57,203 bases of DNA from Deltaproteobacteria bacterium. Its GTDB lineage: Bacteria; Desulfobacterota; Dissulfuribacteria; Dissulfuribacterales; UBA3076. Shown here piece after piece: positions 861 to 21,612 of this stretch. A program made the position numbers and the translations under genes. Location of the stretch: positions 1 through 57,203 of the forward strand of contig JAGYNZ010000015.1 of NCBI GenBank assembly GCA_018399745.1. The letters run 5' to 3'. The stretch's first letter is position 1; every line of letters starts with the position of its first letter. The notes under the pieces were generated by a model, which was not told the origin of the DNA, ran no database searches, and worked only from the letters and a program-made list of their open reading frames with translations.

Positions 861-1805
861 ATGAAAGTCGGTAATTATACTTTTTCATGCCTGGTGGTTT
901 CGCCCATGATGCTACCCCGCCTTAAGGGCTCTGTAATCCGAGGGGCACTCGGGGCTTCTCTGAAGCGCGTATCCTGTGCATTAAGACATCAACGTTGCGA
1001 TACGTGCATTCTCAGGGAACGCTGTATATACGTTGGTTTTTTTGAAAGACTTCCGCCGGTGCCAGGCAGTCCGAAGTGGCTAAATGTGCGCCCCAGTCCC
1101 TTTGTTCTTGAACCTCCTGATACGGAAACACAGGATTATAATCCTGCTACCAGGTTCAGTTTTAATATCCTCTTGTTTGGTAAGACAAATGAGTTTTTGC
1201 CTTATTTGATCTATGCCATAGAACAAATGGGACGTCATGGGCTTGGAAAGGCCGTACATGGCGATAATCGGGGCAGCTTTACTCTGGAAGCCGTGATTCA
1301 TGGAGGACAGGAAATATATACGGCTAAAGAAGGACGTCTGTATCAGCCAGAGAACTTGACGGATCTTGTGCCGCCGGATTTGTCCGGTGGTTATCCGCAT
1401 TTAGCACTTACAAAGCTTTCTGTTCGCTTGGTTACCCCGCTTCGCCTGAAATCAAGCAATAAGTTTCAGGATCAACTGCCCTTTTCCAGTTTGATAAGGG
1501 CTGCCTTGCGCCGAATCTCCTCCCTTGAGGCAACTTATGGAGAGGCTGAGCCGAACCTTCCCTACCGGGAGCTTGCGGCTATGGCAGAGTCAGTAAAGAT
1601 CATGGACATGGACCTCAGTTGGCATGATTGGCATAGATACTCCAGCCGGCAAAAGGCCTCCATGCGTCTGGGCGGCATGGTTGGAACAACAAGCTATAAG
1701 GATGAAAACTTGGGGGTCTTTATGCCTCTATTGCGTTATGTAGAGCAGGTGCATCTGGGTAAGCAGACTAGTTTTGGTTTAGGGCATTTAGAGATCATCG
1801 AGTGA
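861..1805 (+). CDS. cas6: CRISPR-associated endoribonuclease Cas6
   Basis: 314 residues, resembling Cas6 RAMP proteins that cut the repeat in the precursor CRISPR transcript to release crRNAs. The N-terminal part has a four-cysteine cluster (C39, C46, C49, C55) followed by the FFE motif common to the large Cas6 subgroup with a C-terminal PF10040-type domain. The C-terminal domain ends with the glycine-rich RAMP loop (KQTSFGLGHLEI), and the HDWHRYSSRQ segment before it carries histidines that could act in catalysis. It is the first gene of the locus, transcribed toward the csm genes. Its stop overlaps the GTG start of the next small frame (GTGA). Family is confident; the catalytic residue is inferred. 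Confidence 0.9.
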   Translation: MKVGNYTFSCLVVSPMMLPRLKGSVIRGALGASLKRVSCALRHQRCDTCILRERCIYVGFFERLPPVPGSPKWLNVRPSPFVLEPPDTETQDYNPATRFSFNILLFGKTNEFLPYLIYAIEQMGRHGLGKAVHGDNRGSFTLEAVIHGGQEIYTAKEGRLYQPENLTDLVPPDLSGGYPHLALTKLSVRLVTPLRLKSSNKFQDQLPFSSLIRAALRRISSLEATYGEAEPNLPYRELAAMAESVKIMDMDLSWHDWHRYSSRQKASMRLGGMVGTTSYKDENLGVFMPLLRYVEQVHLGKQTSFGLGHLEIIE

Positions 1806-2089: not shown

Positions 2090-3388
2090 GTGCCCTGCAC
2101 CTATTTCTTTGAGGACAGGGAGGTCGAAAATGTTCGCTTTGTCCAGGAGGCCCTTGTCCGGATTTTCTGCAAGCAGTGGAAAAAAGATGACCGGATCATT
2201 GTTTTTACTACGTATGAGGCGAATGACAAAAACTGGCGTGACGGGGGACTGAAAGACGAGGAAGGCAGGCCATGTGAGGGCCTCGAAACCAGACTTTCGA
2301 GCCTCGGCCTTCAGTGCGAGATACGGCAGGTGATGATTCCAGAGGGCCATACTGCCGAAGATATCTGGAAGATATTTGATCAGGCGTGCGACCAGATCAA
2401 CAACTCCGACACCGTCATATTCGACATTACCCATGCCTTCCGCTCCATCCCCATGCTGGCTATGGTAGTCCTCCAATACCTTAAGATCCTAAAAAAGATC
2501 CAGATCTCAGGCATCTATTACGGCGCATTTGAAGTCCTTGGCCCAGCCTGGAAAGTAAAGGAGATCCCTCTGATACACCGCCGGGCTCCTGTTGTCGAAC
2601 TGACTGACTTCGTTTACTTGGCCGACTGGGCAACAGCCGTAGACCGTTTCCTTGCCGCCGGCGACGGTAGGGCCATTGCCGATCTAGTCAAAAAGAAGGC
2701 TATCCCGGTTATCAAGACCTCGACCACTAATACTGCAGAACGTAAGGGGGCCATGGCTGTCCGGGATCTAGCCGATAGCCTGGCGAATTTTTCCGGGATA
2801 ATGGCTACCTGCCGCGGCCTGCAAATCAGTGAGGCAGCGTCCAAACTGATCAAGAACATCGATAACTGCGAAGTGTTTGATGTCATCCCTCCATTGTTAC
2901 CCTTATTGGAGAAGCTTAAAGAGTCAGTGAAGGGTTTCCAGGAAAACGACGATATAGCAAACGGCCTCCAGGCAGCCCGCTGGTGTCTGGAGCACAACCT
3001 CGTCCAGCAGGCCTACACGATCCTGCAGGAAACCTTGGTTTCCCTAGTCCTCTGCCAGGTGGAGGACCTGTCAGCGCCGATTCATCTCATAGAGAGCTCA
3101 AAAAGGCAACTTGTTACTGAAATCTCCGCGCGGACGGCTCAAAAAAAGCCCCTTACCGAAGCCAGGGAAGATGAGGGCACTCAAGAATTCCGGTCTCTGG
3201 TACGGGATTTTCTAAGGGAAAAGGACGTGGGCCGACAACTTTACCGGATACAAAATCGTCGTAATGACTTGAACCACGCCGGGATCAACAAGCATCCGGC
3301 AGGGGCAAGCAGTTTTAAAAAAGACCTGCAGGAGATTTTAGATTGGTTTGAATCGATTCAACAACATATTGGCAGGGGCTGGGAATAA
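2090..3388 (+). CDS. CARF-HEPN CRISPR ancillary ribonuclease, Csx1/TM1812 type
   Basis: 432 residues from the first canonical start (GTG). The N-terminal half is a CARF domain, which binds cyclic oligoadenylate made by Cas10, with the DxTH signature in VIFDITHAFRSIPML. The C-terminal half ends in a HEPN RNase motif, R-x4-H (RRNDLNH). It should be a ribonuclease switched on during type III interference. The start is odd: homologous sequence (NLFLSFLGTNNY, the first CARF strand and loop) continues in frame upstream to 2051, preceded by ATA at 2048-2050 rather than ATG, with GAAGGTGA just before it. Starting at 2090 would delete this conserved strand. Either ATA initiates, or the gene is damaged. 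Confidence 0.85.
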   Translation: MPCTYFFEDREVENVRFVQEALVRIFCKQWKKDDRIIVFTTYEANDKNWRDGGLKDEEGRPCEGLETRLSSLGLQCEIRQVMIPEGHTAEDIWKIFDQACDQINNSDTVIFDITHAFRSIPMLAMVVLQYLKILKKIQISGIYYGAFEVLGPAWKVKEIPLIHRRAPVVELTDFVYLADWATAVDRFLAAGDGRAIADLVKKKAIPVIKTSTTNTAERKGAMAVRDLADSLANFSGIMATCRGLQISEAASKLIKNIDNCEVFDVIPPLLPLLEKLKESVKGFQENDDIANGLQAARWCLEHNLVQQAYTILQETLVSLVLCQVEDLSAPIHLIESSKRQLVTEISARTAQKKPLTEAREDEGTQEFRSLVRDFLREKDVGRQLYRIQNRRNDLNHAGINKHPAGASSFKKDLQEILDWFESIQQHIGRGWE

Positions 3389-3529: not shown

Positions 3530-3614
3530 CTGGGAAAAATTATAGATGGAGTGCAAGCATATAACGTAAAAGCAAAATCAGAAGAAAGCCCCGAATTAAC
3601 GTTTGGAGGAGGCC

Positions 3615-6155
3615 ATGAAGGATACAGTTCTGAAGATAAGCCTTGCAGGATTACTACACGATATTGGCAAGTTTGCCGAGCGTGCTTTTGCCGTGGATCT
3701 GGGAGACAAGGACAGTGTGCAACAAAATTATAATTATAGTCATGCTTTCAGTACCGAACAGGTTTTAAAAAGTATCTTCCCAGAGTGCCTTGAGAAAAGG
3801 ATTGATAACTCTCTTGATATCAAGGATTGCACGGTGCTGAATCTTGCTGCCCGGCATCACAAACCTAGGCACACTTATGAGGTTATGATCAGCGAAGCGG
3901 ATCGGATCGCCTCTGGACATGAAAGGGCTAAAGCCGACGAGGCTTCTGGCTTTGAGACAAAAGGATGGGAGAGGAAAAGCCAGGTACCTCTGCTTAGCAT
4001 ACTCGGCCGGGTACGTCTAAAAAATGCACCTATCAACGATACATCAAAAAATATGCGCTATCGCATCACAACGCCACCTTTGCGCCATGATGAAACGTTC
4101 GAAAAGGGGTTTCCAGTGACCACCGAAGAGTATAACGCCGCCCAAGTTCGCTCCGATTATAAGAACCATTGGCAGAAGTTCAGGGAAGCTATCACTGGCA
4201 TCGACCCGGAAAAACAGTTTGAGACTTTGTTTGAGGTCTGTCGAATATATCAGTGGTGTCTACCCGCCTCAACTAAAAAGGAGGAGCTTCCAGATGTCTC
4301 ACTTTTCGAACATCATAAGGTGACAGCGGCCCTTGCTTCCTGCCTTTTCCTATATCACCAGCATGAAGGACAATTTTTTGAAAAAAATGCGATCCGCGAC
4401 CGGACAGTGAAAAAATATCTTCTTTTTTGCGGTGATATCAGCGGTATCCAATCGTTCATATACCAGATTTCATCAAAAGGAGCCTACAAGACCTTAAAGG
4501 GGAGATCCTTTTTCATCCAATTGCTGGCAGAAGTTTTGGCCAGAAGATTCATAAAAAAATTCGGCCTGACCATAGCCAATATTCTCTATTCTAGCGGCGG
4601 CAAATTCTATCTGCTTTTGCCATGCACTAAAGAGGTGGAACATCAGCTTGTCTCGCTTGCTGATGAAATCAATTTCGAGCTGTTTAACCGCTTCAATGGA
4701 GACCTTTTTATTCGTACCGGATATGAACCATTATCCGGCGATGACCTTACCGGGGAAAGCGGCAAAAACCTGAGCCAGATTTGGAGCGACCTTGGACAAA
4801 AATTGCTTTTTGAAGACCGAACTCGTTATTCATCTCTTGCCCGCAGGGGCTATGACAATGTCTTTGGATTTAAAGGCAACGCTGAATATATCTCCTGCGA
4901 AGTTTGTCATCAGACTATACGGCCGCGAAAAGCCAATGGGGCTAACCAATGCAAATGCTGCCGTGAAATGATGGAGATTGGCCGTAAGCTGGGGACGAGT
5001 AAATTGCTAGTCATGGCCAATAATGAAACAGCTATTGATGGGCATTATGACTTTTCTATATTTGATAACTATTTCTGGTTCATCGAGGCGGGCCAGAAGT
5101 TTTTCTCCCATAAGGATTGCCTAGTATGGACACTGAATGATCTCGATTTTATCGAATCTGCCAAAGGCAGTTCCCTCTCAACTATAAATGCAGCACCCAT
5201 GATAGTCGGAAGCACCCACCGCTTTAACTTGGAATTTGAAGAAGTAGCCGGGACGGCAAACGGAAGGCACCGGCTTGGAATCCTGCGTATGGATGTGGAC
5301 AATCTAGGACAGATATTTGGTCATGGCCTAGGGGATTACATATATGAAGGTAGGGAAAAACCGGGCAGATTCCATTCACTTGGCCGGATAACTACCCTGA
5401 GCTGGCAGCTCTCTCTCTTTTTTGGAACCATGGTTCCTGCTCTTATAAGAAGCCAAAAAGAATGGAAAGACAGGGTTACTGTAGTCTATTCCGGCGGGGA
5501 TGATCTCTTCCTTCTAGGTGCCTGGGATGCCATGCCCAAAATTGCTCTGGCTGTGCGAAAGGCTTTCAGCCGCTTCTGTTGTCAAAATCCGAGCTGGGGT
5601 CTCTCCGGTGGCGTAGTTATGACCGGCGGCAAATTCCCTGTTTATAAGAGTGCCGAAATGGCGGGAGAAGCAGAGGAAAAAGCGAAAAAATTTTGTATCA
5701 AAATAAATGGCGGAAGAAAACGAAGAAAAAATGCCTTCACCTTTTTCGATACGGTAATGGGATGGGATGAGTTTGACGAAATCACTCGGGTGCGGGGAAA
5801 ATTATATGACAGTCTTGAGAAAACGGAAAACCGGCCCCTGCTTTCCCGCCTCAGGGATATAAATGCTTCATGGACGGCTAGTCGGGACAAAATGCGTCAG
5901 GCTAATGGTATGTTAACAATGACAGAAATCAACAAAAACCTAATGGCGGAAAAGTGGCGATGGCGCATGGTGTACTCGTTGAAACGGCTTGGCGAAAGTC
6001 GGAAAAATCTCAATGAAGCAGTAAAAGATATCCAACAGTTCATACTTAATCCAGTGGCGGGCGGCAAACGTCATGGCATAGAATTTCTTGGTGTCGTAAG
6101 TAGGTGGTGTGAACTTGAATTAAGCAAACCGCAAAATAGCAAAGGAGGGGAATGA
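3615..6155 (+). CDS. cas10: Type III-A signature protein Cas10/Csm1
   Basis: 846 residues from ATG 3615; an in-frame TTG at 3603 is unlikely because the GGAGG box lies at 3605-3609. Cas10 is the large subunit of the Csm complex. It cuts single-stranded DNA with its HD domain and makes cyclic oligoadenylate with its Palm domain once target RNA is bound. The HD motif is intact (LLHDIGKFAE, H15-D16). The zinc-binding segment has CEVC and CKCC around residues 428-450. The second Palm domain carries the intact cyclase motif GGDD at about 626-629 (YSGGDDLFLLGAW). Both activities should be present. It heads a tight cas10-csm2-csm3-csm4-csm5 operon and overlaps csm2 by four bases. Confidence 0.97.
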   Translation: MKDTVLKISLAGLLHDIGKFAERAFAVDLGDKDSVQQNYNYSHAFSTEQVLKSIFPECLEKRIDNSLDIKDCTVLNLAARHHKPRHTYEVMISEADRIASGHERAKADEASGFETKGWERKSQVPLLSILGRVRLKNAPINDTSKNMRYRITTPPLRHDETFEKGFPVTTEEYNAAQVRSDYKNHWQKFREAITGIDPEKQFETLFEVCRIYQWCLPASTKKEELPDVSLFEHHKVTAALASCLFLYHQHEGQFFEKNAIRDRTVKKYLLFCGDISGIQSFIYQISSKGAYKTLKGRSFFIQLLAEVLARRFIKKFGLTIANILYSSGGKFYLLLPCTKEVEHQLVSLADEINFELFNRFNGDLFIRTGYEPLSGDDLTGESGKNLSQIWSDLGQKLLFEDRTRYSSLARRGYDNVFGFKGNAEYISCEVCHQTIRPRKANGANQCKCCREMMEIGRKLGTSKLLVMANNETAIDGHYDFSIFDNYFWFIEAGQKFFSHKDCLVWTLNDLDFIESAKGSSLSTINAAPMIVGSTHRFNLEFEEVAGTANGRHRLGILRMDVDNLGQIFGHGLGDYIYEGREKPGRFHSLGRITTLSWQLSLFFGTMVPALIRSQKEWKDRVTVVYSGGDDLFLLGAWDAMPKIALAVRKAFSRFCCQNPSWGLSGGVVMTGGKFPVYKSAEMAGEAEEKAKKFCIKINGGRKRRKNAFTFFDTVMGWDEFDEITRVRGKLYDSLEKTENRPLLSRLRDINASWTASRDKMRQANGMLTMTEINKNLMAEKWRWRMVYSLKRLGESRKNLNEAVKDIQQFILNPVAGGKRHGIEFLGVVSRWCELELSKPQNSKGGE

Positions 6156-6544
6156 TGCAAAAAAACGAGGTGGAACAATGGATTAGTTCTGGTCCTGAGC
6201 CAAAACTGATGGATATTGCCAAAGAGTTTGGGGAAGAAATAAAAAGTAGCGGCCTTACCACATCACAAATCAGACAGGTCTTTTCAAAGCTTAAATCCAT
6301 TGAGGCAAAAAAATACCGCCAGCAACGGACTGAGTTTATGATGTTAAAGCCTTTTATCGCCTATGCGGCAGGACGACAGGCTAAAGTTAACGGCTTACAA
6401 AAGTTTAAGGAAAAAATTACGTGGGGCATAAATTGTGTTTTGGACGTTCATGGTGACGAAATAGAAGAAGAAAAAAGATTCAAGAATTTTTGTACATTTT
6501 TTGAAGCGATACTTGCTTATCACCGCGCGTGTGGCGGTAAATAA
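6152..6544 (+). CDS. csm2: Csm complex small subunit Csm2
   Basis: 130-residue mostly helical protein placed between cas10 and csm3, the position of the small subunit in type III-A. The segment KPFIAYAAGRQAKVNGLQKF and the helical C-terminal half match Csm2, which lines the complex along the crRNA-target duplex. The start ATG overlaps the cas10 stop (AATGATG), with AAAGGAGG just upstream. A second ATG immediately follows the first, so the protein may start one residue later. The length is normal for the family. Confidence 0.92.
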   Translation: MMQKNEVEQWISSGPEPKLMDIAKEFGEEIKSSGLTTSQIRQVFSKLKSIEAKKYRQQRTEFMMLKPFIAYAAGRQAKVNGLQKFKEKITWGINCVLDVHGDEIEEEKRFKNFCTFFEAILAYHRACGGK

Positions 6545-6561: not shown

Positions 6562-7338
6562 ATGACTGAAACTCTAAAATTGAGCAAAAAGATATTCATC
6601 AAAGGTAAAATATTCGTCAAGACTGGTATACATATCGGTGGATCGTCACTCGGGCTGCAGATTGGCGGCGCAGACAAGGTGGTGGTTCGCAATCCGTTGA
6701 CCAGTCTTCCTTATATTCCCGGTTCGTCATTGAAGGGAAAACTACGTTCTCTGCTGGAAAAAAGTCTTGGCCTGATTACGATTACGCCGAAACAGGATCA
6801 GAAAGGAGAATGGGAAGGCAGACTCTGTGCTGACCCAGAACAAGATGTGGTTCAGCTTTTCGGCAGCCCTGCTGACATCAGCGCGGATTCTGGAATGGTA
6901 AATTCTGCCCCAACGCGCCTTACCGTGCGGGACGCCCCTCTTCTCAATGAAGAAAAATTGGCAGTGGCAGAGAACACCGACATGTACTGCACCGAGATCA
7001 AAACTGAGGTAAACATCGACCGCCTCACTTCTGCTGCCAATCCCCGCAACTTCGAGCGTGTTCCGGCGGGAGCGGAATTCGGACTAGATATGGTAGTGGA
7101 TATTTATAATATCGACGAAGAGGGTGAAAACAAGCGGGCGGAATCTTTTATCGATCTTATGCGGCAGGGGCTCACTCTACTGGAAGACGACTACCTTGGC
7201 GGTCAGGGAACCAGGGGATATGGCCAAGTGGAGTTTGCCATCGATTCAGTGACTGAACGCACCGCCGATGATTACCGCTCCGGCAATGAAGGCAGACCCT
7301 CCCTATTTCAAGAGAAATTCAGTGCTTTCATGAACTGA
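6562..7338 (+). CDS. csm3: Csm complex backbone subunit Csm3 (target RNA nuclease)
   Basis: 258-residue RAMP protein. Csm3 forms the multimeric backbone of the complex and cuts target RNA at six-base intervals. The catalytic aspartate is visible in GGADKVVVRNP (D38), so target RNA cleavage should be intact. The motif PYIPGSSLKGKLRSLLE and the C-terminal glycine-rich loop GGQGTRGYGQV are characteristic. GAGGGGGG lies upstream of the start. It follows csm2 with a 17-base gap and precedes csm4, in canonical III-A order. Confidence 0.96.
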   Translation: MTETLKLSKKIFIKGKIFVKTGIHIGGSSLGLQIGGADKVVVRNPLTSLPYIPGSSLKGKLRSLLEKSLGLITITPKQDQKGEWEGRLCADPEQDVVQLFGSPADISADSGMVNSAPTRLTVRDAPLLNEEKLAVAENTDMYCTEIKTEVNIDRLTSAANPRNFERVPAGAEFGLDMVVDIYNIDEEGENKRAESFIDLMRQGLTLLEDDYLGGQGTRGYGQVEFAIDSVTERTADDYRSGNEGRPSLFQEKFSAFMN

Positions 7339-7354: not shown

Positions 7355-8374
7355 ATGACATATTTATACACCTTGCGCTTTTCCGCACCGGCCCATTTCG
7401 GTCTTGAGGGCATTGGTCAGGAACGGATTGAGCAAAGAGTGCGCTCAGACACCCTTTGGGGCGCAATTATCCAGAAATGGCTTCTTCTTTACGAAGATGA
7501 TCCCGACGAATTGTGCTCGAATTCGCCATTTCAAGTATCAAGTTGTTTCCCGATAATTAACTCCACCTGCTTTTATCCTCTTCCCCTAGGTACCCTTGAT
7601 ACGCTTATTTGCGAAGCTGCATCCTGTGAAGAGCCTATCCTGGAGGTAAAGAAACTTAAAAAAATAAGGTTTGTCGCTGCACCCTTATTTGAAAAAATTA
7701 TAGCTGGAGAAAAGATTACCATTGAAGAACTCAAGGTACCAGCCATAGTGTTTCCTTTTTTGCAAGAGGATGAATGCCAGTTGCAAAATGTTTCTGGGTT
7801 TTCCGTTATCCAACGTCCCCGTCTGGCAATAGACCAGTTGAGTGGAGGTGGAATTGAGGGGGCCTTTTTCTATTGCTCTGACCAGTTTTTTGCCGACTAT
7901 GGCGGACTTTTCTTTGTAGCCTCTTTCCATGACGATGACGCGCGGAAAAAATTTGAGGCCTCACTCCAGCTTCTTGGCGATAGCGGACTTGGAGCGGACA
8001 GCTCCATTGGCAGAGGGCTGTTTTCATTTACAGTAGCGGAATATTCTCCGACAGAAATCAAAAAACCAGACGCTTGGCTTCTCCTGTCCTTATATCATCC
8101 CCGCCGGGACGAGGTGGAAAACGGCATGCTGGAAAATCAACAGACAGCCTACTCACTTACAAAACGTGCGGGCAGGGCTGCAAGTTATTTTACCTCCCGT
8201 TTCCGCCGTAAGGATCTGTGGATGCTGGAAGAAGGCTCAGTACTTGGCCAAAAACCCGAAGGTGATGTCTGTAGGGTTCTGGATCGTTCACCACAGATCA
8301 ATATCCCCCACAACGTGTATCGCAACGGTCGCGCCTTTTCCCTTCCCATGAGCCGGCCAAATGGTAAGGAGTAA
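7355..8374 (+). CDS. csm4: Csm complex subunit Csm4
   Basis: 339-residue RAMP protein in the Csm4 position. Csm4 binds the 5' repeat-derived handle of the crRNA and contacts Cas10. The N-terminus (RFSAPAHFGLEG, then RSDTLWGAI) matches the Csm4/Cmr3-like RAMP start. A glycine-rich loop lies at GLGADSSIGRGLF, and the C-terminal domain ends after HNVYRNGRAFSLP, also typical of Csm4. It is separated from csm3 by 16 bases and from csm5 by 5, so the csm genes are clearly one operon. Confidence 0.93.
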   Translation: MTYLYTLRFSAPAHFGLEGIGQERIEQRVRSDTLWGAIIQKWLLLYEDDPDELCSNSPFQVSSCFPIINSTCFYPLPLGTLDTLICEAASCEEPILEVKKLKKIRFVAAPLFEKIIAGEKITIEELKVPAIVFPFLQEDECQLQNVSGFSVIQRPRLAIDQLSGGGIEGAFFYCSDQFFADYGGLFFVASFHDDDARKKFEASLQLLGDSGLGADSSIGRGLFSFTVAEYSPTEIKKPDAWLLLSLYHPRRDEVENGMLENQQTAYSLTKRAGRAASYFTSRFRRKDLWMLEEGSVLGQKPEGDVCRVLDRSPQINIPHNVYRNGRAFSLPMSRPNGKE

Positions 8375-8379
8375 AATTT

Positions 8380-9831
8380 ATGCAATATAAACCAATACGA
8401 AATGTCTATAAATGCCACATGGAGGCTCTTACCCCTCTGCACGTGGGGTCAGGGGAGACCCTGAGGTCGGATTTCGATTTTTTTATTGATTCCGGGATGG
8501 TCCATCTCATCAATACTGCACATCTTTTCAGGAAAATAGAGAAAATGGGGTCGGATAAAATAGAGGAATTCACCATTGCGATTGAGGAGGAAAAGGCCCG
8601 AAACTGGCTCAAACAAAATGGCATAAACATGAAAGAGATTGCCGTCTCGTCATACCCCACCCCAAAGGGCAAAAAAAACCCCCGCGAAATACGCGCTCAT
8701 ATCAAGGATGGTTACGGTACGCCGTATCTGCCGGGCAGCTCTATCAAAGGAGCTCTTCGCACCGCTATCATCAGAAAACTGGCCAAAGAAAATAATAGCA
8801 AAATAAAAGGTGGCAGTAAAAATTTGAAATTTGCTGACCAGACACTGTGTGAATCACTACTTGGCAACGACGCGAAAAGCAACCTTATGCGGACATTAAC
8901 TGTGGGGGATTTTGCCATGGTTCAAGGCGGGATTGATTTGCATATGGTATGGGTAAATCGTTTAATATCACAAGAAAAGTTCGCGGTCAAATTTCCTCCT
9001 ATATATATTGAAGGTCCAACCAAAGCCGCCGTGGCAACAGGTACTATCTCTCTTGATGAATTCCTGCCGCGAAAAGACGCGGAAAAGAGATGTTTTAAAT
9101 TCAAGGCCCATCTGTCGCTCGACTGGCTGGTTGCCGCCTGCCGCGAGCTAACAAGTCATACAATAGAGACTGAGCTCGCTTTTTTAAAAGGCAAATCCGG
9201 AAAGCCGGTAGAGGACCTTGTCTCATTCTATCAATCTCTTGCCGAGGACCAGAAAAAACTTGGGAAAAATGAGGCAATCGTCCAAATGGCTTGGGGTGCA
9301 GGCTGGCGAGGCATGACGGGCCAATTACTGGCAGCTGAAGACATTACTGCCCAAATCCGCAAGGATTTTAACCTTGCGCCTAAATATATTAAATTTCCCT
9401 TTCCTAAAAGTCGTCGGGTTGTTGTCGCTAATGGCGCGGATATGCCCATGGGCTGGTCGAAAATTTCTTTTATCTCAAAGGAAGCACTGAGGCAGGAGGA
9501 GGAAGAGAGAAAACAACGGAAAATCATTCTAAAACAGGAGGAGGAAAAACGCCGTATCGAGTCGGAGAGATTAAATAAGGAAAGGGACATGCAAAATTTT
9601 AAAAATCGAGTCAACCAATGTCCGAACCTGGGTGGAGAAATTGACTTTTTTGTGCAACAGGTCCGGCAGCAGAAAAGTGGGGAAATACGGATGGAAATGT
9701 GCCATGCTCTGCTAGTAAAAGCAAATTCGCTCAAGAAAAAGCAGAAGTTCTCCAAAGCCATAGAAAGCAAAAAATCTTGGGCACTTCAACTCAGAGAATT
9801 GCTTGTTAATAACGGAATCTTAGTAGACTGA
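8380..9831 (+). CDS. csm5: Csm complex subunit Csm5 with charged coiled-coil C-terminal extension
   Basis: 483 residues. Csm5 caps the 3' end of the crRNA in the Csm complex and helps recruit maturation nucleases. The N-terminus (EALTPLHVGSGE) and the RAMP motif YLPGSSIKGALRTAI are characteristic. From about residue 368 the protein continues with a highly charged, predicted coiled-coil segment (EEEERKQRK and EEEKRRIESERLNKE) and a further helical stretch to the end. This makes it roughly 100 residues longer than a typical Csm5. The extension could tether another protein or RNA. The gene ends the csm cluster, before a 449-base gap. Confidence 0.93.
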   Translation: MQYKPIRNVYKCHMEALTPLHVGSGETLRSDFDFFIDSGMVHLINTAHLFRKIEKMGSDKIEEFTIAIEEEKARNWLKQNGINMKEIAVSSYPTPKGKKNPREIRAHIKDGYGTPYLPGSSIKGALRTAIIRKLAKENNSKIKGGSKNLKFADQTLCESLLGNDAKSNLMRTLTVGDFAMVQGGIDLHMVWVNRLISQEKFAVKFPPIYIEGPTKAAVATGTISLDEFLPRKDAEKRCFKFKAHLSLDWLVAACRELTSHTIETELAFLKGKSGKPVEDLVSFYQSLAEDQKKLGKNEAIVQMAWGAGWRGMTGQLLAAEDITAQIRKDFNLAPKYIKFPFPKSRRVVVANGADMPMGWSKISFISKEALRQEEEERKQRKIILKQEEEKRRIESERLNKERDMQNFKNRVNQCPNLGGEIDFFVQQVRQQKSGEIRMEMCHALLVKANSLKKKQKFSKAIESKKSWALQLRELLVNNGILVD

Positions 9832-11002: not shown

Positions 11003-11136
11003 TAAGAAAATCAGTAGAGGCTTCCAAGAAAGGATTGCTTATGCAACGGCATTAATGTCAGCAGAATGCGCATGTTAAGTTTTGAGGCTGATGGGTATTT
11101 TATGGGAGAGAAATGGTATAGAGGAATTTTGCAGCC

Positions 11137-12384
11137 ATGAAAAAAATCCTGATTGTGACAGTTGGAGGGTCTTGTGCGCCTGTTATTAACGCTGCCCGAA
11201 CGGGCGGTTATAACCATGTTTTTTTTGTATGTTCCACAGGTTCCAGAGGAAGCGAAAAAACAGTTGATGGAGAGGGGGAACCATGCGAGGGGATACGAAG
11301 CGATCGGTCGGATAAATCTATCGTTGCTCAAACCGGGCTTTCAGACGATCAATATACGAAATGGACCCTTGAGGACATAGATAACCTTGGGGTATGCTAT
11401 CAACGCCTCAAGGAACTGAGGGCTGCTATTTATCAAACCTTTGGGCATGAGACCGAGATAGTGGCAAACTACACTGGTGGCACCAAGACCATGTCAATAG
11501 CTTTAAGTATGGCAGCTTTGGCAAGTGGCTGGGGGCTACAGGTAAATCGCGGACCAAGAATTGATTTAGTCAAGGTCCGTCATGGTGACGCACCTGTATT
11601 CGCCGCCATGTCAGACATTTATGAAGATCAGTATGCTATTCTTGTAAAACAAGCCCTTAGTCGTTATGACTGCGGACTTACGTCAGTGCTTGCCCTTGAT
11701 CTTCTCAGAATGAACCTGTCTTCCGACAGTCAACGAAATTGGGCAGATATCTATGCCGTAGCTGCCGGTTTTAATTTTTGGGATTTATTTGATCATTCTA
11801 AAGCCATAGAACATCTTATGCCTTTCGGTCGCTATTATTCGAATTATCTGGTGGCCTTAAAAAAACTTACCGGCCAGGAGAAAGGCAATGGCTACGAGGC
11901 GGTCTCTGACCTCCTGAACAATGCGGAAAGACGTGCATCACAGGACAGGTTTGACGATGCGGTTGCTAGACTCTACCGTGCCACTGAGATGGTAGCCCAA
12001 ATTCGCCTGTTCAAAAAATACGAATTGGACAGCAAAAAGTTAACCCTCAATAATATACCGGAAAACCTTCGTTCAGAGTACGAGCCCTTTGTCCGTGACA
12101 ATGGAAAAGTCCTGTTGGGGCTCCGTGAGTCCTTCGGCTTGTTGAATCGTCTTAATGACCCGGTGGGTAGGCTGTTTGAGACGAAAAGCAATGCGGTGAT
12201 TGATGGACTGAAAACACGAAATAATTCAATATTAGCTCATGGGATTAAACCTGTGGATCGGGAAGGCTATGAAAAGGTATGGGAGACCCTTCATGGCTTT
12301 ATTTCTGAAGCCTTGGATTTGGCCGAGGGTCGCCTGGATGTGCCACAATTCCCCCGTGACTTACCCATGCTTGCAGAAGCTTAG
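11137..12384 (+). CDS. CARF-HEPN protein, Csm6-like (TIGR02710 type)
   Basis: 415 residues. The N-terminal CARF domain opens with KKILIVTVGGSCAPVI, a Rossmann strand-loop, and has the ligand-binding signature NYTGGTKTMS. The C-terminal part is helical and ends with RNNSILAH, an R-x6-H HEPN RNase motif. This is the architecture of Csm6, the ribonuclease activated by cyclic oligoadenylate from Cas10. It is a second effector of this type in the locus and is not closely similar in sequence to the CARF protein near cas6. It follows the MNT-HEPN pair and precedes the primase-like gene. Exact family naming is by recall of motif and layout. Confidence 0.87.
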   Translation: MKKILIVTVGGSCAPVINAARTGGYNHVFFVCSTGSRGSEKTVDGEGEPCEGIRSDRSDKSIVAQTGLSDDQYTKWTLEDIDNLGVCYQRLKELRAAIYQTFGHETEIVANYTGGTKTMSIALSMAALASGWGLQVNRGPRIDLVKVRHGDAPVFAAMSDIYEDQYAILVKQALSRYDCGLTSVLALDLLRMNLSSDSQRNWADIYAVAAGFNFWDLFDHSKAIEHLMPFGRYYSNYLVALKKLTGQEKGNGYEAVSDLLNNAERRASQDRFDDAVARLYRATEMVAQIRLFKKYELDSKKLTLNNIPENLRSEYEPFVRDNGKVLLGLRESFGLLNRLNDPVGRLFETKSNAVIDGLKTRNNSILAHGIKPVDREGYEKVWETLHGFISEALDLAEGRLDVPQFPRDLPMLAEA

Positions 12385-12410: not shown

Positions 12411-14135
12411 ATGTATGTTCAAGCCAGAAAGTTATTGGAGCAAGGCTTTGAAGACCGGGTCAGGGATATCTATCTCCATGGCCGATCAAAGAAGGGACAA
12501 TCGGCACAGGACTATGCCGCCTGGGCCAGGATTGGTGAAGAACTGGATTTGCTTTCTCAGGCCAGAGAAGACTGGCAGCGGGCCTTATCTGTAACTCCTC
12601 ATTTCTGCGCTGATTACTGCATAGGTCTGGCCAGGGTGCTGACACAGTTGAATGAGCAACCTGAGCGCGTTGTTCGACTACTCCAAAATGTCATTTCAAA
12701 AGAACCGGATCGCCCTGAACCCAGAACGATGCTTGCTCAGGTCTATCGCTCTCTTGGCTGGGACCAAGCTGCGCGGTGTCTTGATCAGGAAAAAAATCGA
12801 TCGGATAAAAAGATCGGACCTCGGAGGTTTCCCCGTGATTTGGATCAGCAGATCCTGGACCTATTCCTCAAGTTATTTGGCGGCAAGGAGGTAGGTTATG
12901 CCGAAGAGGTTATGAATTCCGAAACCGGAGCAGTGAATCTCGTGCATAAAGAGACCCCTATGGGCAGAGGCGATGTCAAAGAGCATTTATTGGGACATAG
13001 AAGCCTGGCATGGTATCCGTTGAGGAGCGATTTAACGGTCAGCATCATAACTTTTATGTACCATCTCAAAACAGCCGGTCTAAAAGACGTTGGCCCCAGG
13101 ACACGGTCCGAACTCCTTTGGAATTCCGCATGGGAAGGATTCAGGTATCTGAAAGCAAGGGGCCTGCCGGTAGTGCTCGAAGACTGCCCGGGTCTATCAG
13201 CTCGTATTTGGGTCTTTCTGGAAAAGCCCTGCCACTTCTTAATGACCAGACGAATGGCAAAACTATTGGTGCAGAAGTTGCCTTTTCCCCGTTCCGGAGT
13301 CAGCCTATGTCCGCTTCTTCCAACTGTAGCCCGGGGAATGAAATGGGAAGAGCAAGCACATCCAATGCCGCTCGGTGTTGATAAACGATCAGGTATAAGG
13401 CGCTGGTTTTTAGATGAACAGACAAAGGAGCCCGCACCAGACCAGCTCCTGTTCTTACACCGGATTGTTTGCATTAATCCCAGCCGGTTGAGGCAGATAG
13501 TGCAAAAAATTGAGTTCGGCGGCGACTTCAGACCGTTCGCTGATTTGGATCAACAGTCGCTTGATCTCCTCCTGTCAAAGTGTCCGGTCATTAAAACCAT
13601 TGGGGATAAGGCAGCGGCCGGGCGTATTCTGAACCGTAAGGAAAAGGTGGCTGTCTTTTATACAATAGGATTTCTGGATCAAGACAATAGTCTTCTTCAT
13701 AGGTTTCTGAACCCTTGTCCAGACTATCGTTATAAAGCAGTTGCCAGACAGGCTAAAAATATCCATCCTCGGCCAATCAGTTGTCTCAAGCTACGCTCCT
13801 CACTACCAGAGATCACCGCCTCAGTTGATTGTAACTGCCTTTTCGGGCCTGACCAACTTTCAGACGGCCGATATCCGTCACCTTTGCTTCATGTCAATCC
13901 AATGCTGGTTCCCACTGAGGACGAGCGCTTGAGCATTCAGCGTTCCACAGTAAAGGAACTTGGCAGACACTACCTGAACATCAGCCAGGAGATATCCTCA
14001 CTTGAGAAACGACGCGATATATTGGCCAGGGAATTGGCTGAAGGCCTGAGCAGAAAAAGCAGGCCGTGGACAAAGGTGAATGGCAGTATTCTGAGCCTGG
14101 AAAATGATGGCAATATAAGGATTTCATCAATATGA
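12411..14135 (+). CDS. CRISPR-associated primase-polymerase-like protein (CAPP type), apparently inactivated
   Basis: 574 residues. Residues ~35-125 look like tetratricopeptide repeats. Residues ~150-400 align by eye with the archaeo-eukaryotic primase domain of TOTE/CAPP proteins (FGGKEVGYAEE, HLLGHRSLAWYPLRSDL, then GLPVVLEDCPGLSARIWVFLE). The C-terminal part resembles a primase C-terminal domain with cysteines (ISCLKL, DCNCLF). CAPPs next to cas1-cas2 have been linked to spacer acquisition. The catalytic positions are unusual here: where family members have hhhDhD, this one has SIITFMYHL (211-219); the motif II histidine is arginine (SARIW, 263-267); and no aspartate is seen in the motif III region (LPFPRSG). 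It overlaps cas1 by ATGA. Confidence 0.8.
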   Translation: MYVQARKLLEQGFEDRVRDIYLHGRSKKGQSAQDYAAWARIGEELDLLSQAREDWQRALSVTPHFCADYCIGLARVLTQLNEQPERVVRLLQNVISKEPDRPEPRTMLAQVYRSLGWDQAARCLDQEKNRSDKKIGPRRFPRDLDQQILDLFLKLFGGKEVGYAEEVMNSETGAVNLVHKETPMGRGDVKEHLLGHRSLAWYPLRSDLTVSIITFMYHLKTAGLKDVGPRTRSELLWNSAWEGFRYLKARGLPVVLEDCPGLSARIWVFLEKPCHFLMTRRMAKLLVQKLPFPRSGVSLCPLLPTVARGMKWEEQAHPMPLGVDKRSGIRRWFLDEQTKEPAPDQLLFLHRIVCINPSRLRQIVQKIEFGGDFRPFADLDQQSLDLLLSKCPVIKTIGDKAAAGRILNRKEKVAVFYTIGFLDQDNSLLHRFLNPCPDYRYKAVARQAKNIHPRPISCLKLRSSLPEITASVDCNCLFGPDQLSDGRYPSPLLHVNPMLVPTEDERLSIQRSTVKELGRHYLNISQEISSLEKRRDILARELAEGLSRKSRPWTKVNGSILSLENDGNIRISSI

Positions 14136-15178
14136 GCGTCTTGTATCTGCTTGAACCACAGAGCATAGTTCATAAAGAAGGAGGACGCCTGGTTGTAAAA
14201 AAGGGCAAGGACACGCTGCACAGCGTGCATATTTTCCGTCTGGATCAGGTAGTCATCATGGGACCTGTTATCGTCACTCCTGCTGTTATCAGAATCCTCC
14301 TTCAGGAAGGGATTGACACGGTCTTCATGAGTCGTCGCGGCTATTATTATGGACGGCTTCAAGGTCCAGAGAGCAAAAACATAGTCCTGAGAAGGGATCA
14401 ATTCGATCGACTCACTGATCCTGATTTTGTCCTCAGCACAGCAAAGGCATTAGTCAAAGGCAAACTCAGGAACCAAAGGGCTTTGCTCCAGCGCCTCATG
14501 AGAAATCAGAAAGGCCTTGATCTTAAAAAACCCGTTGATAGCATAGGACGCCTTGCAGATCTTGCGAACTCTGCAGTCGACTTGGACGAACTCAGAGGTT
14601 ATGAAGGTCAGGCGGCCGCTACCTATTTTCCTGCATGGGGCAAAGGGATCAAAGTTGAGGGTCTGAAATTCAGCCGGCGGGTCCGCCGCCCTCCAAAAGA
14701 TCCAGTGAATGCACTGCTCAGCCTCGGATACACGTTACTCCTTAATAATGTCCTGGCAGCAGCTCATTCCACAGGTCTTGACCCATATCTTGGAGCACTC
14801 CATGCCGTGGACTACGGCAGGCCCAGTCTAGCCCTGGATCTTATGGAGGAATGGAGGCCCCTTATTATCGATACCTTGGTACTGAGCGTCTTTAACCTGG
14901 GCGTATTGACAGGCAAAGATTTCACCGCCAATCCAGCGCAATACGAAAATGACTCAGGAGATGAGGAATTTGATGGCAAAGGTCTAGGAACCTACCTCAT
15001 AGATGCCGGCTGGCGGAAATATATCGGGCAGCTTGAAAGGCGTATGGCAACGGAGGTGACCTTTCATCTGAATGACCAGCATCTAAGTTACCGTGACGCT
15101 ATTCGGCAACAGGTCCGTCATTTTGCAAGCTATATTCGAGGTGATTCGGATATCTATCAACCGATGCCTCTGCGTTGA
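14132..15178 (+). CDS. cas1: CRISPR integrase Cas1
   Basis: 348 residues. Cas1 with Cas2 inserts new spacers at the leader end of the array. The metal-binding residues are in place: a glutamate in RGYEGQAAATYF, the histidine in LGALHAVDYGRPSLALDL and the acidic residue in the following MEEWRPL. The N-terminal beta domain begins LYLLEPQSIVHKEGG. There is no fused reverse transcriptase or Cas6 domain. The start codon overlaps the stop of the primase-like gene, so the adaptation genes are coupled to it. Cas4 is absent, as usual for type III. Confidence 0.97.
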   Translation: MSVLYLLEPQSIVHKEGGRLVVKKGKDTLHSVHIFRLDQVVIMGPVIVTPAVIRILLQEGIDTVFMSRRGYYYGRLQGPESKNIVLRRDQFDRLTDPDFVLSTAKALVKGKLRNQRALLQRLMRNQKGLDLKKPVDSIGRLADLANSAVDLDELRGYEGQAAATYFPAWGKGIKVEGLKFSRRVRRPPKDPVNALLSLGYTLLLNNVLAAAHSTGLDPYLGALHAVDYGRPSLALDLMEEWRPLIIDTLVLSVFNLGVLTGKDFTANPAQYENDSGDEEFDGKGLGTYLIDAGWRKYIGQLERRMATEVTFHLNDQHLSYRDAIRQQVRHFASYIRGDSDIYQPMPLR

Positions 15179-15189
15179 GGTAAAGAAAA

Positions 15190-15468
15190 ATGTATGTCCT
15201 GATTTCCTATGATATTGTTGATGACAGACGTCGCCTAAAGGTAATGAAATTTTTGAAAGACTTCGGAAAGAGAGTGCAATTAAGCATGTTTGAATGTCAT
15301 CTGACCGAGGAACAGCTTGTTTTTGTTCGATCAGGGGTACGTGACCTTATAAATCATCGTAAAGATCGCATACGGTATTGGCCTATCTGCAAAACCTGCG
15401 CCGCCCGTGTGGAGGTAGATGGCTGGGGCGAAGTGCAGGAAGAAGAAGAGAGTTTTGCGATAGTTTGA
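15190..15468 (+). CDS. cas2: Cas2, first copy
   Basis: 92 residues starting MYVLISYDIVDDRRR, the ferredoxin-like fold of Cas2 with its conserved aspartate after the first strand. Cas2 dimers bridge two Cas1 dimers in the integration complex. A C-x2-C pair (CKTC) is near the C-terminus. GAGG lies before the start, and the gene follows cas1 by 11 bases. It is one of two tandem cas2 genes that differ clearly in sequence. Confidence 0.95.
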   Translation: MYVLISYDIVDDRRRLKVMKFLKDFGKRVQLSMFECHLTEEQLVFVRSGVRDLINHRKDRIRYWPICKTCAARVEVDGWGEVQEEEESFAIV

Positions 15469-15480
15469 CAAGGTGACAGC

Positions 15481-15774
15481 ATGGGCAGCAGAACATCTTA
15501 CATGGTCATTAGTTATGATATCAGTGATCCAAAAAGGCTGAATAAGATCGCGAAGATCATGAAGAATTATGCAACCAGGGTCCTTTACAGCGTATTTGAG
15601 GGCGAACTAAACTGGAGCCAAGAGCAGAGAATGCGTCGAGAGGTTGTCCAGGTGCTGGATGTTGAAGAGGATAGTGTCAGGTATTATCACTTATGCAGAC
15701 GATGCAAGGACCGAATTCTGACAAATGGTATTAAAGTGCCCCTTCAGGAGGAAAAAGATTTTGAGATTATATAG
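15481..15774 (+). CDS. cas2: Cas2, second copy
   Basis: 97 residues (SYMVISYDISDPKRLNKIAK), again Cas2 with the strand-Asp motif and a C-x2-C pair (CRRC). It shares the fold-defining positions with the upstream Cas2 (RVLYSVFEGEL versus RVQLSMFECHL) but is otherwise diverged, so this is not a recent duplication. AAGGTGA precedes the start 12 bases after the first cas2. The two proteins could form a heterodimer within one Cas1-Cas2 complex; that is inference. It is the last cas gene before the leader. Confidence 0.95.
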   Translation: MGSRTSYMVISYDISDPKRLNKIAKIMKNYATRVLYSVFEGELNWSQEQRMRREVVQVLDVEEDSVRYYHLCRRCKDRILTNGIKVPLQEEKDFEII

Positions 15775-16056: not shown

Positions 16057-19000
16057 GTGAGAACCGATGACCCGATTAGGAGGGGATTGAGACTGTTTTA
16101 CATCGTCATAATCTTTAATTTTTTTCATTCTCTAAGTGAGAACCGATGACCCGATTAGGAGGGGATTGAGACTGAATTGGAAACATTTGTAATTAGGTAC
16201 TTGCATTTTGTGAGAACCGATGACCCGATTAGGAGGGGATTGAGACCTTGAATTAGCAGAATCGGTTAAATTTATTCGATACCAGGTGAGAACCGATGAC
16301 CCGATTAGGAGGGGATTGAGACTTAAGGTAATTCAAAAAGGTATCAGGGTTATCTGCTATAGTGAGAACCGATGACCCGATTAGGAGGGGATTGAGACTT
16401 ACATCGAATTGTCCGACTGAATCCAGGCCGAATATAGTGAGAACCGATGACCCGATTAGGAGGGGATTGAGACGGGGATTCTGTCTAGCCTATATGACTT
16501 TTTAAATTGTGTGAGAACCGATGACCCGATTAGGAGGGGATTGAGACCCTTGATATTAGTTTATTTTACTGATTACATATGTCGTAGTGAGAACCGATGA
16601 CCCGATTAGGAGGGGATTGAGACGCTTTTAATTCGGTATATGTTTTCATAGTCTTTTTCTCCGTGAGAACCGATGACCCGATTAGGAGGGGATTGAGACC
16701 CCTTATAAATTTATTTGTATTAATTCCTGACTAAATCTGTGAGAACCGATGACCCGATTAGGAGGGGATTGAGACTCAACCCCTTTTTGTGTCCATTCAA
16801 CTTGTGTCTGTGAGTGAGAACCGATGACCCGATTAGGAGGGGATTGAGACTTGACTAAATCTAGAGCTTTTCTATGCGCTCTACCTGTGAGAACCGATGA
16901 CCCGATTAGGAGGGGATTGAGACCGGATGTATAGATGATTATGATATGACACCAGAAAGGGGTGAGAACCGATGACCCGATTAGGAGGGGATTGAGACTT
17001 TCATTGTCTTAATCCTCCCTTTAAATTTTGATGTTAGTGAGAACCGATGACCCGATTAGGAGGGGATTGAGACTAAGGAGAAACAATCTCCGGCTTTGGA
17101 TTGACTATTGTTGGTGAGAACCGATGACCCGATTAGGAGGGGATTGAGACACTTTAGTGAGCAACAAGACCTCTTTTTTGCCTCCTGTGTGAGAACCGAT
17201 GACCCGATTAGGAGGGGATTGAGACCCGATATACTTTAAAAGTATTAAACAAAGTGCGTTTTGTGAGAACCGATGACCCGATTAGGAGGGGATTGAGACT
17301 CCATTCGTGCAAAATGTATCAACGGAATCATCTTCGTGAGAACCGATGACCCGATTAGGAGGGGATTGAGACGATTCCAGTTGCTGGCAATCATGGGTTT
17401 GTCATCAGTGAGAACCGATGACCCGATTAGGAGGGGATTGAGACTCGTGGATCTCTTCTCATTGTCTTAATCCTCCCTTTAAATGTGAGAACCGATGACC
17501 CGATTAGGAGGGGATTGAGACCATTATTATACTTAATCCATAGCATACTCTGTTCATCGTGAGAACCGATGACCCGATTAGGAGGGGATTGAGACCCGGG
17601 GCTGTCAAAGGGTTTAAATCTTTGTAATAACAGTGAGAACCGATGACCCGATTAGGAGGGGATTGAGACTATACGCAAAAAACATAATAAGTTAATAGTT
17701 GACAGTGAGAACCGATGACCCGATTAGGAGGGGATTGAGACGTCAAGCACTCTTTCTATAGCTTGGATTCTTTCTGATGGTGAGAACCGATGACCCGATT
17801 AGGAGGGGATTGAGACCCACCAATCACACGGACCTTTGAAATAATGTAAATATAGTGAGAACCGATGACCCGATTAGGAGGGGATTGAGACTCAAATCCT
17901 TGTTTTTCCATCTGTGTTGCCTCCTGTGTGAGAACCGATGACCCGATTAGGAGGGGATTGAGACTTCCCCCTTTATTTTATTATGACACTCTTTACATAA
18001 GCGTGAGAACCGATGACCCGATTAGGAGGGGATTGAGACCAAAACCGAACGCTTGGTATTGTTCTGTTCCCATGGTGAGAACCGATGACCCGATTAGGAG
18101 GGGATTGAGACATCTCCTTTTTCTTTTCGTTTTCATTAGTCATGTTTGGACGTGAGAACCGATGACCCGATTAGGAGGGGATTGAGACAAGTGTCGTTAG
18201 TATTACGAGCACTTTCATGATTATTCCAGTGAGAACCGATGACCCGATTAGGAGGGGATTGAGACCATTAATCTCCTGACATATTACTATGTCAGGAATC
18301 TCTGTGAGAACCGATGACCCGATTAGGAGGGGATTGAGACCTGACAAACTGTTCATGGATGTAAGCCAGATTATCTTCGTGAGAACCGATGACCCGATTA
18401 GGAGGGGATTGAGACTCAAGGTAGAGCTTTAATGCCTTGGCTTCGGTCTTTGAGTGAGAACCGATGACCCGATTAGGAGGGGATTGAGACGCGGAGAAGT
18501 TCTTCTCCGTTCTCTTCTATGAAATCCTGGTGAGAACCGATGACCCGATTAGGAGGGGATTGAGACTCTGCGCAAAAAGCTTCGCAAGGTCAGCCGGGTC
18601 TTCAGTGAGAACCGATGACCCGATTAGGAGGGGATTGAGACTAAAGCAAAACCTGTATGAACTCCAGTTCTAGTCCTGGTGAGAACCGATGACCCGATTA
18701 GGAGGGGATTGAGACTGTAATTGCTCGAACCCTTGTTTTTCCATTTGTGCTGCCGTGAGAACCGATGACCCGATTAGGAGGGGATTGAGACTCTTGTAGT
18801 TTAAATTCTTTTGTAATTGCTCGAACCCGTGAGAACCGATGACCCGATTAGGAGGGGATTGAGACGATTGCGTACTTGCCGGACGCCTTCAATGCAGCTC
18901 CGTGAGAACCGATGACCCGATTAGGAGGGGATTGAGACCATAACTAAAAACCCCCCTGGAAACACGATTCCAGTTGGCGTGAGAACCGATGACCCGATTA

Positions 19001-21490
19001 GGAGGGGATTGAGACCCTCAGGGGAGAACCCTTTGTATCTCCCCCCGTTTCCGTGTGTGAGAACCGATGACCCGATTAGGAGGGGATTGAGACGCCATCT
19101 TGATAATAGAATATTTTTCTCCATTATCGTGAGAACCGATGACCCGATTAGGAGGGGATTGAGACCCACTGATATTTACTGCAATCAAATTTTCTTTTAT
19201 TGTGAGAACCGATGACCCGATTAGGAGGGGATTGAGACGCAAATCCTTATGCCTGAAATTTTCTGCAAGCTCAAGTGAGAACCGATGACCCGATTAGGAG
19301 GGGATTGAGACGGTTACATCAGTCCATGTTTTCATGTCAGTCTCCTATGTGAGAACCGATGACCCGATTAGGGGGGGATTGAGACAGCCCTCACTGGTGG
19401 AGGGCTTGAGAGGTTGAGATGGTGAGAACCGATGACCCGATTAGGAGGGGATTGAGACGTCTCTGTATGCCTCTTGTGTCTGCGGATTGCCTGAGTGAGA
19501 ACCGATGACCCGATTAGGAGGGGATTGAGACTATCTGTGCCGCGATCATCTGAGGTGTATGAGTAGCGTGAGAACCGATGACCCGATTAGGAGGGGATTG
19601 AGACCTTTGCTTGTCTTAAAAAGACCTTAACGCCTTTATAGGTCAGTGAGAACCGATGACCCGATTAGGAGGGGATTGAGACTCCGCCCAACAAATACAG
19701 TCTTCAACCTTGCTAGGTCTTGTGAGAACCGATGACCCGATTAGGAGGGGATTGAGACCGTTTTGCATTCATCATGGTATTTCCTCCCTTTTTTATTGTG
19801 AGAACCGATGACCCGATTAGGAGGGGATTGAGACTTGAATTAGCAGAATCGGTTATCGATTTATTATTCGTTCGTGAGAACCGATGACCCGATTAGGAGG
19901 GGATTGAGACGCTTAGGTTCCAGCCTGTACAAAGGTTCAATATTTCTGTGAGAACCGATGACCCGATTAGGAGGGGATTGAGACAGTAGTTGATTAAGCT
20001 GGATATTTACGTTTGTAATGTCTGTGAGAACCGATGACCCGATTAGGAGGGGATTGAGACTTTATGCCGTTGATTATGGCTTTTCTGAGCAGTTTCAAGG
20101 TGAGAACCGATGACCCGATTAGGAGGGGATTGAGACCTTCTTACTCCTCGCTCTTTGGTATAAACTGTTATCGTGAGAACCGATGACCCGATTAGGAGGG
20201 GATTGAGACAGAGCCTTTTAATGTCGTACTCAGGACGTTAATTGTTAGGTGAGAACCGATGACCCGATTAGGAGGGGATTGAGACAATATCCTGTATCTG
20301 CGTATAAAGGGCTTTCAGTGTGTGAGAACCGATGACCCGATTAGGAGGGGATTGAGACTTAGACATTTTCAGCTCTTTGATATATTCATAGACCGCATGT
20401 GAGAACCGATGACCCGATTAGGAGGGGATTGAGACTAACTTTGCCAAGTCTCTTTCGTGTGCATCTTCAATGTGAGAACCGATGACCCGATTAGGAGGGG
20501 ATTGAGACACCAAACAAGTTTGTCCCTTTTGCAACCCCGCTGCCAGTGAGAACCGATGACCCGATTAGGAGGGGATTGAGACGTTTTGTATCTCTTGAAG
20601 GGCGGTATTTGTTTACCTCGTGAGAACCGATGACCCGATTAGGAGGGGATTGAGACACACTGTCTGGTATAATTCCATTCACTTTTCCCCCTTTAGTGAG
20701 AACCGATGACCCGATTAGGAGGGGATTGAGACGTTTCCACCTGATGGCACCTTTTAAGGTCTCAAAGACAGTGAGAACCGATGACCCGATTAGGAGGGGA
20801 TTGAGACCCAGAAGGTCAATATCTGCTCTGTTATCTGCACTTAATAGTGAGAACCGATGACCCGATTAGGAGGGGATTGAGACTAATATTCACTACTTAA
20901 CGTTTTACAATTTCGGCTGTCCGGTGAGAACCGATGACCCGATTAGGAGGGGATTGAGACTTTTTAATATCGTCCCTTGTTGTTAAGTCCATCTCTGTGT
21001 GAGAACCGATGACCCGATTAGGAGGGGATTGAGACATCAAGGGTCCTTGCATTATGCACAAGGTAATAGGCACCCTGTGAGAACCGATGACCCGATTAGG
21101 AGGGGATTGAGACCCTCTGCTGGATTATCTCTATGCGAGATACATTTAATCGTGAGAACCGATGACCCGATTAGGAGGGGATTGAGACACGACTGTTCCA
21201 TAATAGAGATTTGAATCAGTTATGCCGAGTGAGAACCGATGACCCGATTAGGAGGGGATTGAGACGGCCTTGGACTTTGAGGCAATCTTATTACCTTTGG
21301 GGTGAGAACCGATGACCCGATTAGGAGGGGATTGAGACGCTGTCTCTTTTGCTCCGCTTTTCGTGCCGATAGCACGGGTGAGAACCGATGACCCGATTAG
21401 GAGGGGATTGAGACTATAGCTGTGCTAGCTCGTTTCTTTGCTCGTCTGTCAATGTGAGAACCGATGACCCGATTAGGAGGGGATTGAGAC
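16057..21490 (+). CRISPR. CRISPR array, 73 repeats of 37 nt, 72 spacers
   Basis: The repeat begins GTGAGAACC and ends GGGATTGAGAC; the last eight bases, ATTGAGAC, resemble the crRNA 5' handle common in type III systems. That orients transcription left to right, away from the leader and cas genes. Counting by eye gives 73 full repeats with unit length 72-79, so spacers are 35-42 nt. All repeats appear identical except the one at 19349-19385, where base 25 is G instead of A. Several spacers overlap or are variants of each other, and at least eleven are antisense to apparent gene starts. Frames seen here that repeat the peptide RTDDPIRRGLR or LNPLLIGSSVLT are translations of the repeat, not genes. 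Confidence 0.98.
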
Positions 21491-21530: not shown

Positions 21531-21612
21531 CCAGTTCTAAGGGGATTGAGACCATAATTATCTCTAATTTCCAGTTTCCGTAAGAATCGATGCCCCAGAT
21601 CATTGCGACTCA
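21531..21612 (+). repeat. Degenerate terminal CRISPR repeats with an inverted repeat
   Basis: After the last intact repeat, a half-repeat retaining AGGGGATTGAGAC ends at 21552. A second decayed copy starts at 21580 (GTAAGAATCGATG against GTGAGAACCGATG). This is normal decay at the leader-distal end. Around them, GGAAATTGGAAATT at 21509-21522 is nearly complementary to AATTTCCAGTTTCC at 21566-21579, so the region could form a hairpin or be an inserted small repeat. The rest of 21553-21820 holds no gene I can support. Confidence 0.7.

Follow-up and report, generated by a model that had tools for sequence, protein, structure and literature searches.

Near-complete antisense strand bias and translation-start matches in the spacers of a type III-A CRISPR array with a primase-polymerase adaptation module

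We analyzed a 57,203-nucleotide (nt) stretch of a Deltaproteobacteria bacterium (contig JAGYNZ010000015.1, assembly GCA_018399745.1; hereafter the window), which carries a type III-A (Csm) locus and an array of clustered regularly interspaced short palindromic repeats (CRISPR) with 72 spacers. The adaptation module of this locus combines Cas1 and Cas2 with a CRISPR-associated primase-polymerase (CAPP). Nearly all spacers of the array are antisense to coding sequence, and several span translation starts. The array likely serves a working type III-A system, in which the antisense strand would prevail by its usefulness and the start matches would arise by sampling of gene-dense regions, with no mechanism directed at starts.

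In the proposed mechanism, CRISPR RNAs (crRNAs) would be antisense to the phage coding strand because only such guides could bind transcripts through the Csm complex. Transcript binding would activate Cas10 together with the CARF effectors, and cells holding useful guides would survive, so that selection would be the cause of the bias. Guides spanning a start would make up the share expected from 38-nt sense-strand pieces of gene-dense phage regions, probably small-gene, early ones. The array and its relatives bear on how type III systems without reverse transcriptase gain guides of the useful strand. Their bias is nearly complete, measurable without protospacers and undiminished in the newest spacers.

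Strand of the spacers

The repeat end ATTGAGAC is the usual type III crRNA handle; the crRNA therefore corresponds to the + strand, and the target to the reverse complement of each spacer. We gauged the strand without protospacers, using a codon-position Markov model and the strand agreement of overlapping spacers. The model's training set, about 0.9 Mb of IMG/VR contigs, was retrieved using as query the portal gene from a phage fragment of this genome bin. In the codon-model mixture, the antisense-to-coding fraction was 0.97 (0.89-1.00) for the 72 spacers of this array and 0.98 (0.95-1.00) for a cohort of 957 spacers from 36 CAPP-linked arrays. CAPP-less type III-A arrays, whose loci were screened for reverse transcriptases by motif only and within the retrieved stretch, gave 1.00 (0.94-1.00; 285 spacers), and type I-C control arrays from cas1-centred loci gave 0.66 (0.53-0.79; 178 spacers). 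Distinct spacers of one array sharing at least 15 nt, taken from the window and the CAPP cohort, agreed in strand in 40 of 40 pairs, with no opposite pair; therefore, at least 96% of spacers lie on one strand. The near-complete antisense bias of the array is thus strongly supported, and it bears out a preliminary description of the array, which read the crRNAs as complementary to messages, the orientation to be expected of type III systems.

In all type III arrays examined, the bias is unchanged with distance from the leader. The coding-like fraction on the target strand was 0.77 for the five newest spacers and 0.76 for old ones, and held-out phage sense windows gave 0.72-0.83. Mapped type III spacers likewise match the coding strand, so that their crRNAs can bind messenger RNA, but the average coding-strand share is 65% (Vink 2021, PMC8482600); the 89-100% found here by a protospacer-free method is at the strong end. 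In Thermus thermophilus type III systems, spacers are also complementary to phage transcripts and adaptation proceeds without reverse transcriptase. There, the strand bias was shown to arise by selection, and early genes gave most spacers for one phage (Artamonova 2020, PMC7515739), whereas the bias here is read from standing arrays.

Alternatively, CAPP-Cas1-Cas2 may take spacers from RNA or transcription-linked intermediates, preferably near the 5' ends of messages, so that strand bias and start-site matches alike would arise at the acquisition step. The position of the CAPP gene beside cas1-cas2 would suit this explanation, as would a near-complete bias that does not grow with spacer age and the greater frequency of inverted repeats in CAPP spacers than in others. 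However, CAPP is not the sole cause of the strand bias because CAPP-less arrays without visible reverse transcriptase are equally biased. In addition, the two CAPPs assayed strongly favour DNA as template, and one of them was inefficient at priming on RNA (Zabrady 2021, PMC8211822). Together with the start-site data below, these points make acquisition from messages unlikely.

Translation-start signatures

All 12 spacers quoted in the preliminary description lie where it placed them, and their reverse complements read as described. It reported an ATG with a continuing open frame in at least eleven spacers; the feature is no commoner than in dinucleotide shuffles. By a mechanical rule (an ATG whose frame stays open for 5 or more codons), 22 of the 72 reverse complements had an open ATG, compared with 17.4 ± 3.2 in the shuffles, and 94 of 1000 shuffles reached 22. 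The open-ATG count is at the shuffle level and is therefore no evidence taken alone. The same rule found 15 forward spacers, where a single possible forward case had been seen by eye. The eleven cases also collapse to about nine sites because spacers 13/19 (at 16999 and 17445) and 25/36(/37) (at 17892 and 18716) target the same places.

A stricter signature, an open ATG preceded at normal distance by a Shine-Dalgarno core of 5 nt or more, was found in six reverse complements (spacers 13, 19, 25, 30, 44, and 50) and in one forward spacer. The shuffles averaged 1.44, and 2 of 1000 reached 6. When cores of 4 nt were also accepted, the counts were 8 for reverse complements, 4 for forward spacers, and 4.7 for shuffles. 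Shine-Dalgarno sequences had been ascribed to most of the quoted sites; four of these, the spacers at 16094, 18112, 18716, and 20961, have no core of this kind inside the spacer.

The shuffles are the wrong null because the phage sense strand carries real starts. Random phage sense windows, drawn from a limited set of phages, showed the strong signature in 2.5-3.8% of cases (IMG/VR 2.8%, heavier Shine-Dalgarno users 3.6%, Geobacillus E2 3.0%, lambda 2.5%, P23-45 3.2%). The signature was present in 8.3% of spacers in this array (6/72; 5/69 once overlaps were collapsed), 5.0% in the CAPP cohort (46/921), 3.2% in CAPP-less arrays (9/280), and 7 of 178 type I-C spacers with both strands counted. 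Against phage sense windows at 2.8-3.6%, the 6/72 gave p = 0.016-0.045 and the collapsed 5/69 gave p = 0.05-0.10; at a 4.4% baseline, the array excess gave p = 0.10-0.19. For the pooled cohort, p was 2e-4 to 0.02 at the 2.8-3.6% baselines and 0.21 at 4.4%.

One might suppose that the start pattern is a selection effect of reading purine-rich sense sequence by eye, with zero excess. The open-ATG counts would agree with this, and the collapsed excess over phage sense windows is borderline (p = 0.05-0.19). We nevertheless consider zero excess very unlikely, since the strong signature exceeds its shuffled count several times over, several sites are unmistakable, and the pooled cohort lies above the phage average, though with p = 0.21 at the 4.4% baseline.

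We also estimated the start-containing fraction by a generative mixture model with interior, start, stop, and non-coding classes. In calibration, the found and expected fractions were 3.6/3.6% for E2, 5.2/5.2% for the E2 early half, and 3.6/4.1% for P23-45, although the model underestimates starts in host genes and some regions. The fraction was 7.8% both in this array (0-16%) and in the CAPP cohort (5.4-11.2%). Real phages average 3-4%, while the E2 early half has 5.2% and the E2 small-gene region 9.7%. The cohort therefore shows a possible start excess of 1.5-2.3-fold over phage averages, which small-gene sampling could explain. The preliminary description had proposed a special enrichment at starts, by acquisition from message 5' ends or by selection for silencing. 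Such an enrichment is not established, and for this array alone the borderline excess vanishes against gene-dense regions. There may be a modest start-site effect, for which the data leave room without demanding it. A true preference for start sites would suggest that spacers are taken from message ends or that guide sites are selected. Stop-codon fractions from the same model were dropped as unreliable under codon mismatch.

For acquisition from message 5' ends, the cohort excess is a favourable point. However, the start codon position within spacers is uniform and has no fixed register, so there is no sign of a fixed end, and Fisher's test shows no significant difference in signature rate between CAPP and CAPP-less arrays (p = 0.25).

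Type III interference relies on the activation of Cas10 by RNA binding and does not require translation to be blocked. This speaks against the idea that selection favours guides to ribosome-binding sites, either because messages are open there or because a guide bound there would stop translation. About six strong start sites among 72 spacers, with two of them targeted repeatedly (spacers 13/19 and 25/36/37), would fit such selection. However, the protospacer targets are more, not less, structured than shuffled or phage sense sequence, and starts are not significantly commoner in overlapping hot-spot spacers (p = 0.35). Selection for ribosome-binding-site guides is thus quite improbable.

Several points weigh against our preferred explanation by usefulness and gene-dense sampling. 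Spacers near the leader match old ones in their antisense share, which is not what slow purging alone would predict; the missing age gradient mildly favours a bias at acquisition. The cohort start fraction lies above every whole-phage average measured, and the mixture model may drift where codon usage departs from the training phages. No mapped protospacer shows sampling of early regions: blastn of the full array against phages and plasmids found none, nor did searches of two cohort arrays against phages, six pattern scans of IMG/VR, or a comparison of all spacers with the other loci collected and with related phage contigs (their first 900 kb). Against 8 genus and 46 order genomes, the array matched CRISPR repeats only, and one spacer pattern searched across 395 phylum genomes was present in this array alone.

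Locus and array

Scans with Pfam and NCBIfam place the locus in type III-A, as Cas10/Csm1 and csm2, csm3, csm4, and csm5 are all present (Table 1). Cas10 has the GGDD cyclase motif, and CARF effectors of TIGR02710 and TIGR02221 accompany it. CAPP adjoins cas1 and both cas2 genes (12411-15774) and passes the AEP family cut-off, so that the locus is a type III-A (Csm) system with a CAPP-Cas1-Cas2 adaptation module. The same scans found no reverse transcriptase in the cas operon. RNA-guided binding of complementary transcripts by the complex is suggested only indirectly, by spacers antisense to coding sequence.

Table 1. Coordinates of the cas genes, the CRISPR array, and selected spacers in the window
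Feature	Coordinates	Strand	Evidence or description
cas6-like RNA endonuclease (crRNA processing)	861..1805	+	TIGR01877 cas6 E 3e-6, under cut-off
CARF-family ancillary effector (TM1812/DxTHG)	2090..3388	+	TIGR02221 104 bits, above cut-off
cas10/csm1, HD domain and GGDD motif	3603..6155	+	TIGR02578 615 bits; PF01966; YSGGDDLF in translation
csm2	6152..6544	+	PF03750
csm3-like RAMP	6562..7338	+	PF03787; operon position
csm4	7355..8374	+	TIGR01903 201 bits
csm5	8380..9831	+	TIGR01899 88 bits
Nucleotidyltransferase/HEPN (MNT-HEPN type) toxin-antitoxin-like pair	10281-11002		Within cas operon
Csm6-like CARF-HEPN ancillary RNase	11137..12384	+	TIGR02710 194 bits; PF09670
CAPP, type A1	12411..14135	+	NF040561 236.9 bits (cut-off 200); AEP-TOTE domain, PF22548
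cas1, no reverse transcriptase fusion, 348 amino acids	14132..15178	+	PF01867 E 7e-89
cas2, copy 1	15190..15468	+	TIGR01573
cas2, copy 2	15481..15774	+	TIGR01573
CRISPR array	16057..21490	+	73 repeats of 37 nt ending ATTGAGAC (crRNA 5' handle), 72 spacers
Spacer 8	16624..16662	-	GGAG, a weak 4-nt Shine-Dalgarno core, before MKTYTELK
Spacer 13	16999..17036	-	Target strand AAAGGGAGGATTAAGACAATGAAA (ribosome-binding site and start); 26-nt overlap with spacer 19
Spacer 19	17445..17484	-	Targets the ribosome-binding site and start of spacer 13; related phage
Spacer 25	17892..17927	-	AGGAGG then MEKQGF
Spacer 36	18716..18754	-	MEKQGFEQL, gene start of the kind in spacer 25; 17-nt overlap with spacer 37 (18792-18828)
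Spacer 44	19312..19348	-	TAGGAGA then MKTWTDVT; start posterior 0.88
Spacer 50	19759..19797	-	AAGGGAGG then MMNAK; start posterior 0.89
Spacer 62	20657..20695	-	AAAGGGGG then GTG/ATG start; posterior 0.80

In CAPP_A (TPR-AEP) type III-A systems such as that of Marinitoga piezophila (PMC8211822), CAPP likewise lies directly upstream of cas1/cas2 and exceeds the NCBIfam A1 cut-off; the present locus differs by its two tandem cas2 genes. The window CAPP protein has no match to Pfam TPR, and its aligned CAPP relatives do match TPR. The named relatives of this CAPP suggest that the host genome and its relatives belong to Desulfobacterota. Type III systems with RT-Cas1 fusions (reverse transcriptase-Cas1; Marinomonas, Silas and co-workers) share the type III effector and the RNA-targeting spacer orientation, but they have a reverse transcriptase where this cas operon has CAPP.

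The two cas2 genes (15190-15774) differ from each other, and locus L104 has the same tandem arrangement. On the contig of L127, L104 also carries a 696-amino-acid frame (9134-11221, + strand) that fuses the TPR and primase-polymerase part of a CAPP to a C-terminal portion of Cas1 (Pfam PF22548, and PF01867 at positions 117-264), an arrangement that parallels RT-Cas1 fusions. Since both parts are shortened, the frame may stem from an in-frame deletion or an assembly error.

Within the array, spacers 3 (16247-16285) and 51 (19835-19873) agree over 21 nt at one end, beyond which they diverge and contain indels, a pattern consistent with related phages bearing variants of one gene. The repeat at 19349-19385 differs by a single A-to-G change. 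A degenerate repeat remnant, AGGGGATTGAGAC, at 21540-21561, 50 nt past the last repeat, marks the old end of the array. The genome bin (G000) also contains a 3088-nt phage fragment (contig C74; L134/L135) with portal, head maturation protease, and capsid genes. Its nearest IMG/VR contig (L155) has a portal 77% identical, and no spacer of this array matches the fragment.

Inverted repeats and terminators in spacers

CAPP-type III modules might acquire spacers strand-specifically from single-stranded phage material, either RNA or fold-back single-stranded DNA copied by the primase-polymerase, although we consider this improbable. If it were true, such capture would yield memories that are almost wholly antisense from the outset, richer in inverted repeats, and biased to the 5' regions of genes, without a reverse transcriptase.

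Perfect inverted repeats with a stem of at least 7 bp occur in 4/72 spacers of this array (18266-18303, 18491-18529, and 19386-19421 are examples), 54/937 of CAPP arrays, 10/261 of CAPP-less type III arrays, and 1/174 of type I-C arrays. The same stem is found in 0.9% of IMG/VR phage windows and in 1.3-2.2% of windows from three phage genomes. Both strands show the excess to about the same degree, and coding-like spacers share it. In folding energy, CAPP arrays show a stronger excess than CAPP-less ones (p = 0.02 at the level of arrays). Low target structure, or accessibility, was rejected as an explanation because the targets exceed shuffles in structure.

Terminator signatures were found 7 times per orientation among 921 spacers, above phage windows (0.3%); they are not strand-specific and therefore do not support a 3'-end rule. 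In the array of locus L062 (13292-20000), several spacers carry hairpins that resemble terminators and have a T run, and their sequences are closely related (GGCGCACTCACAACGTGAGTGCGCCTTTTTTT), which suggests that related intergenic elements were sampled repeatedly.

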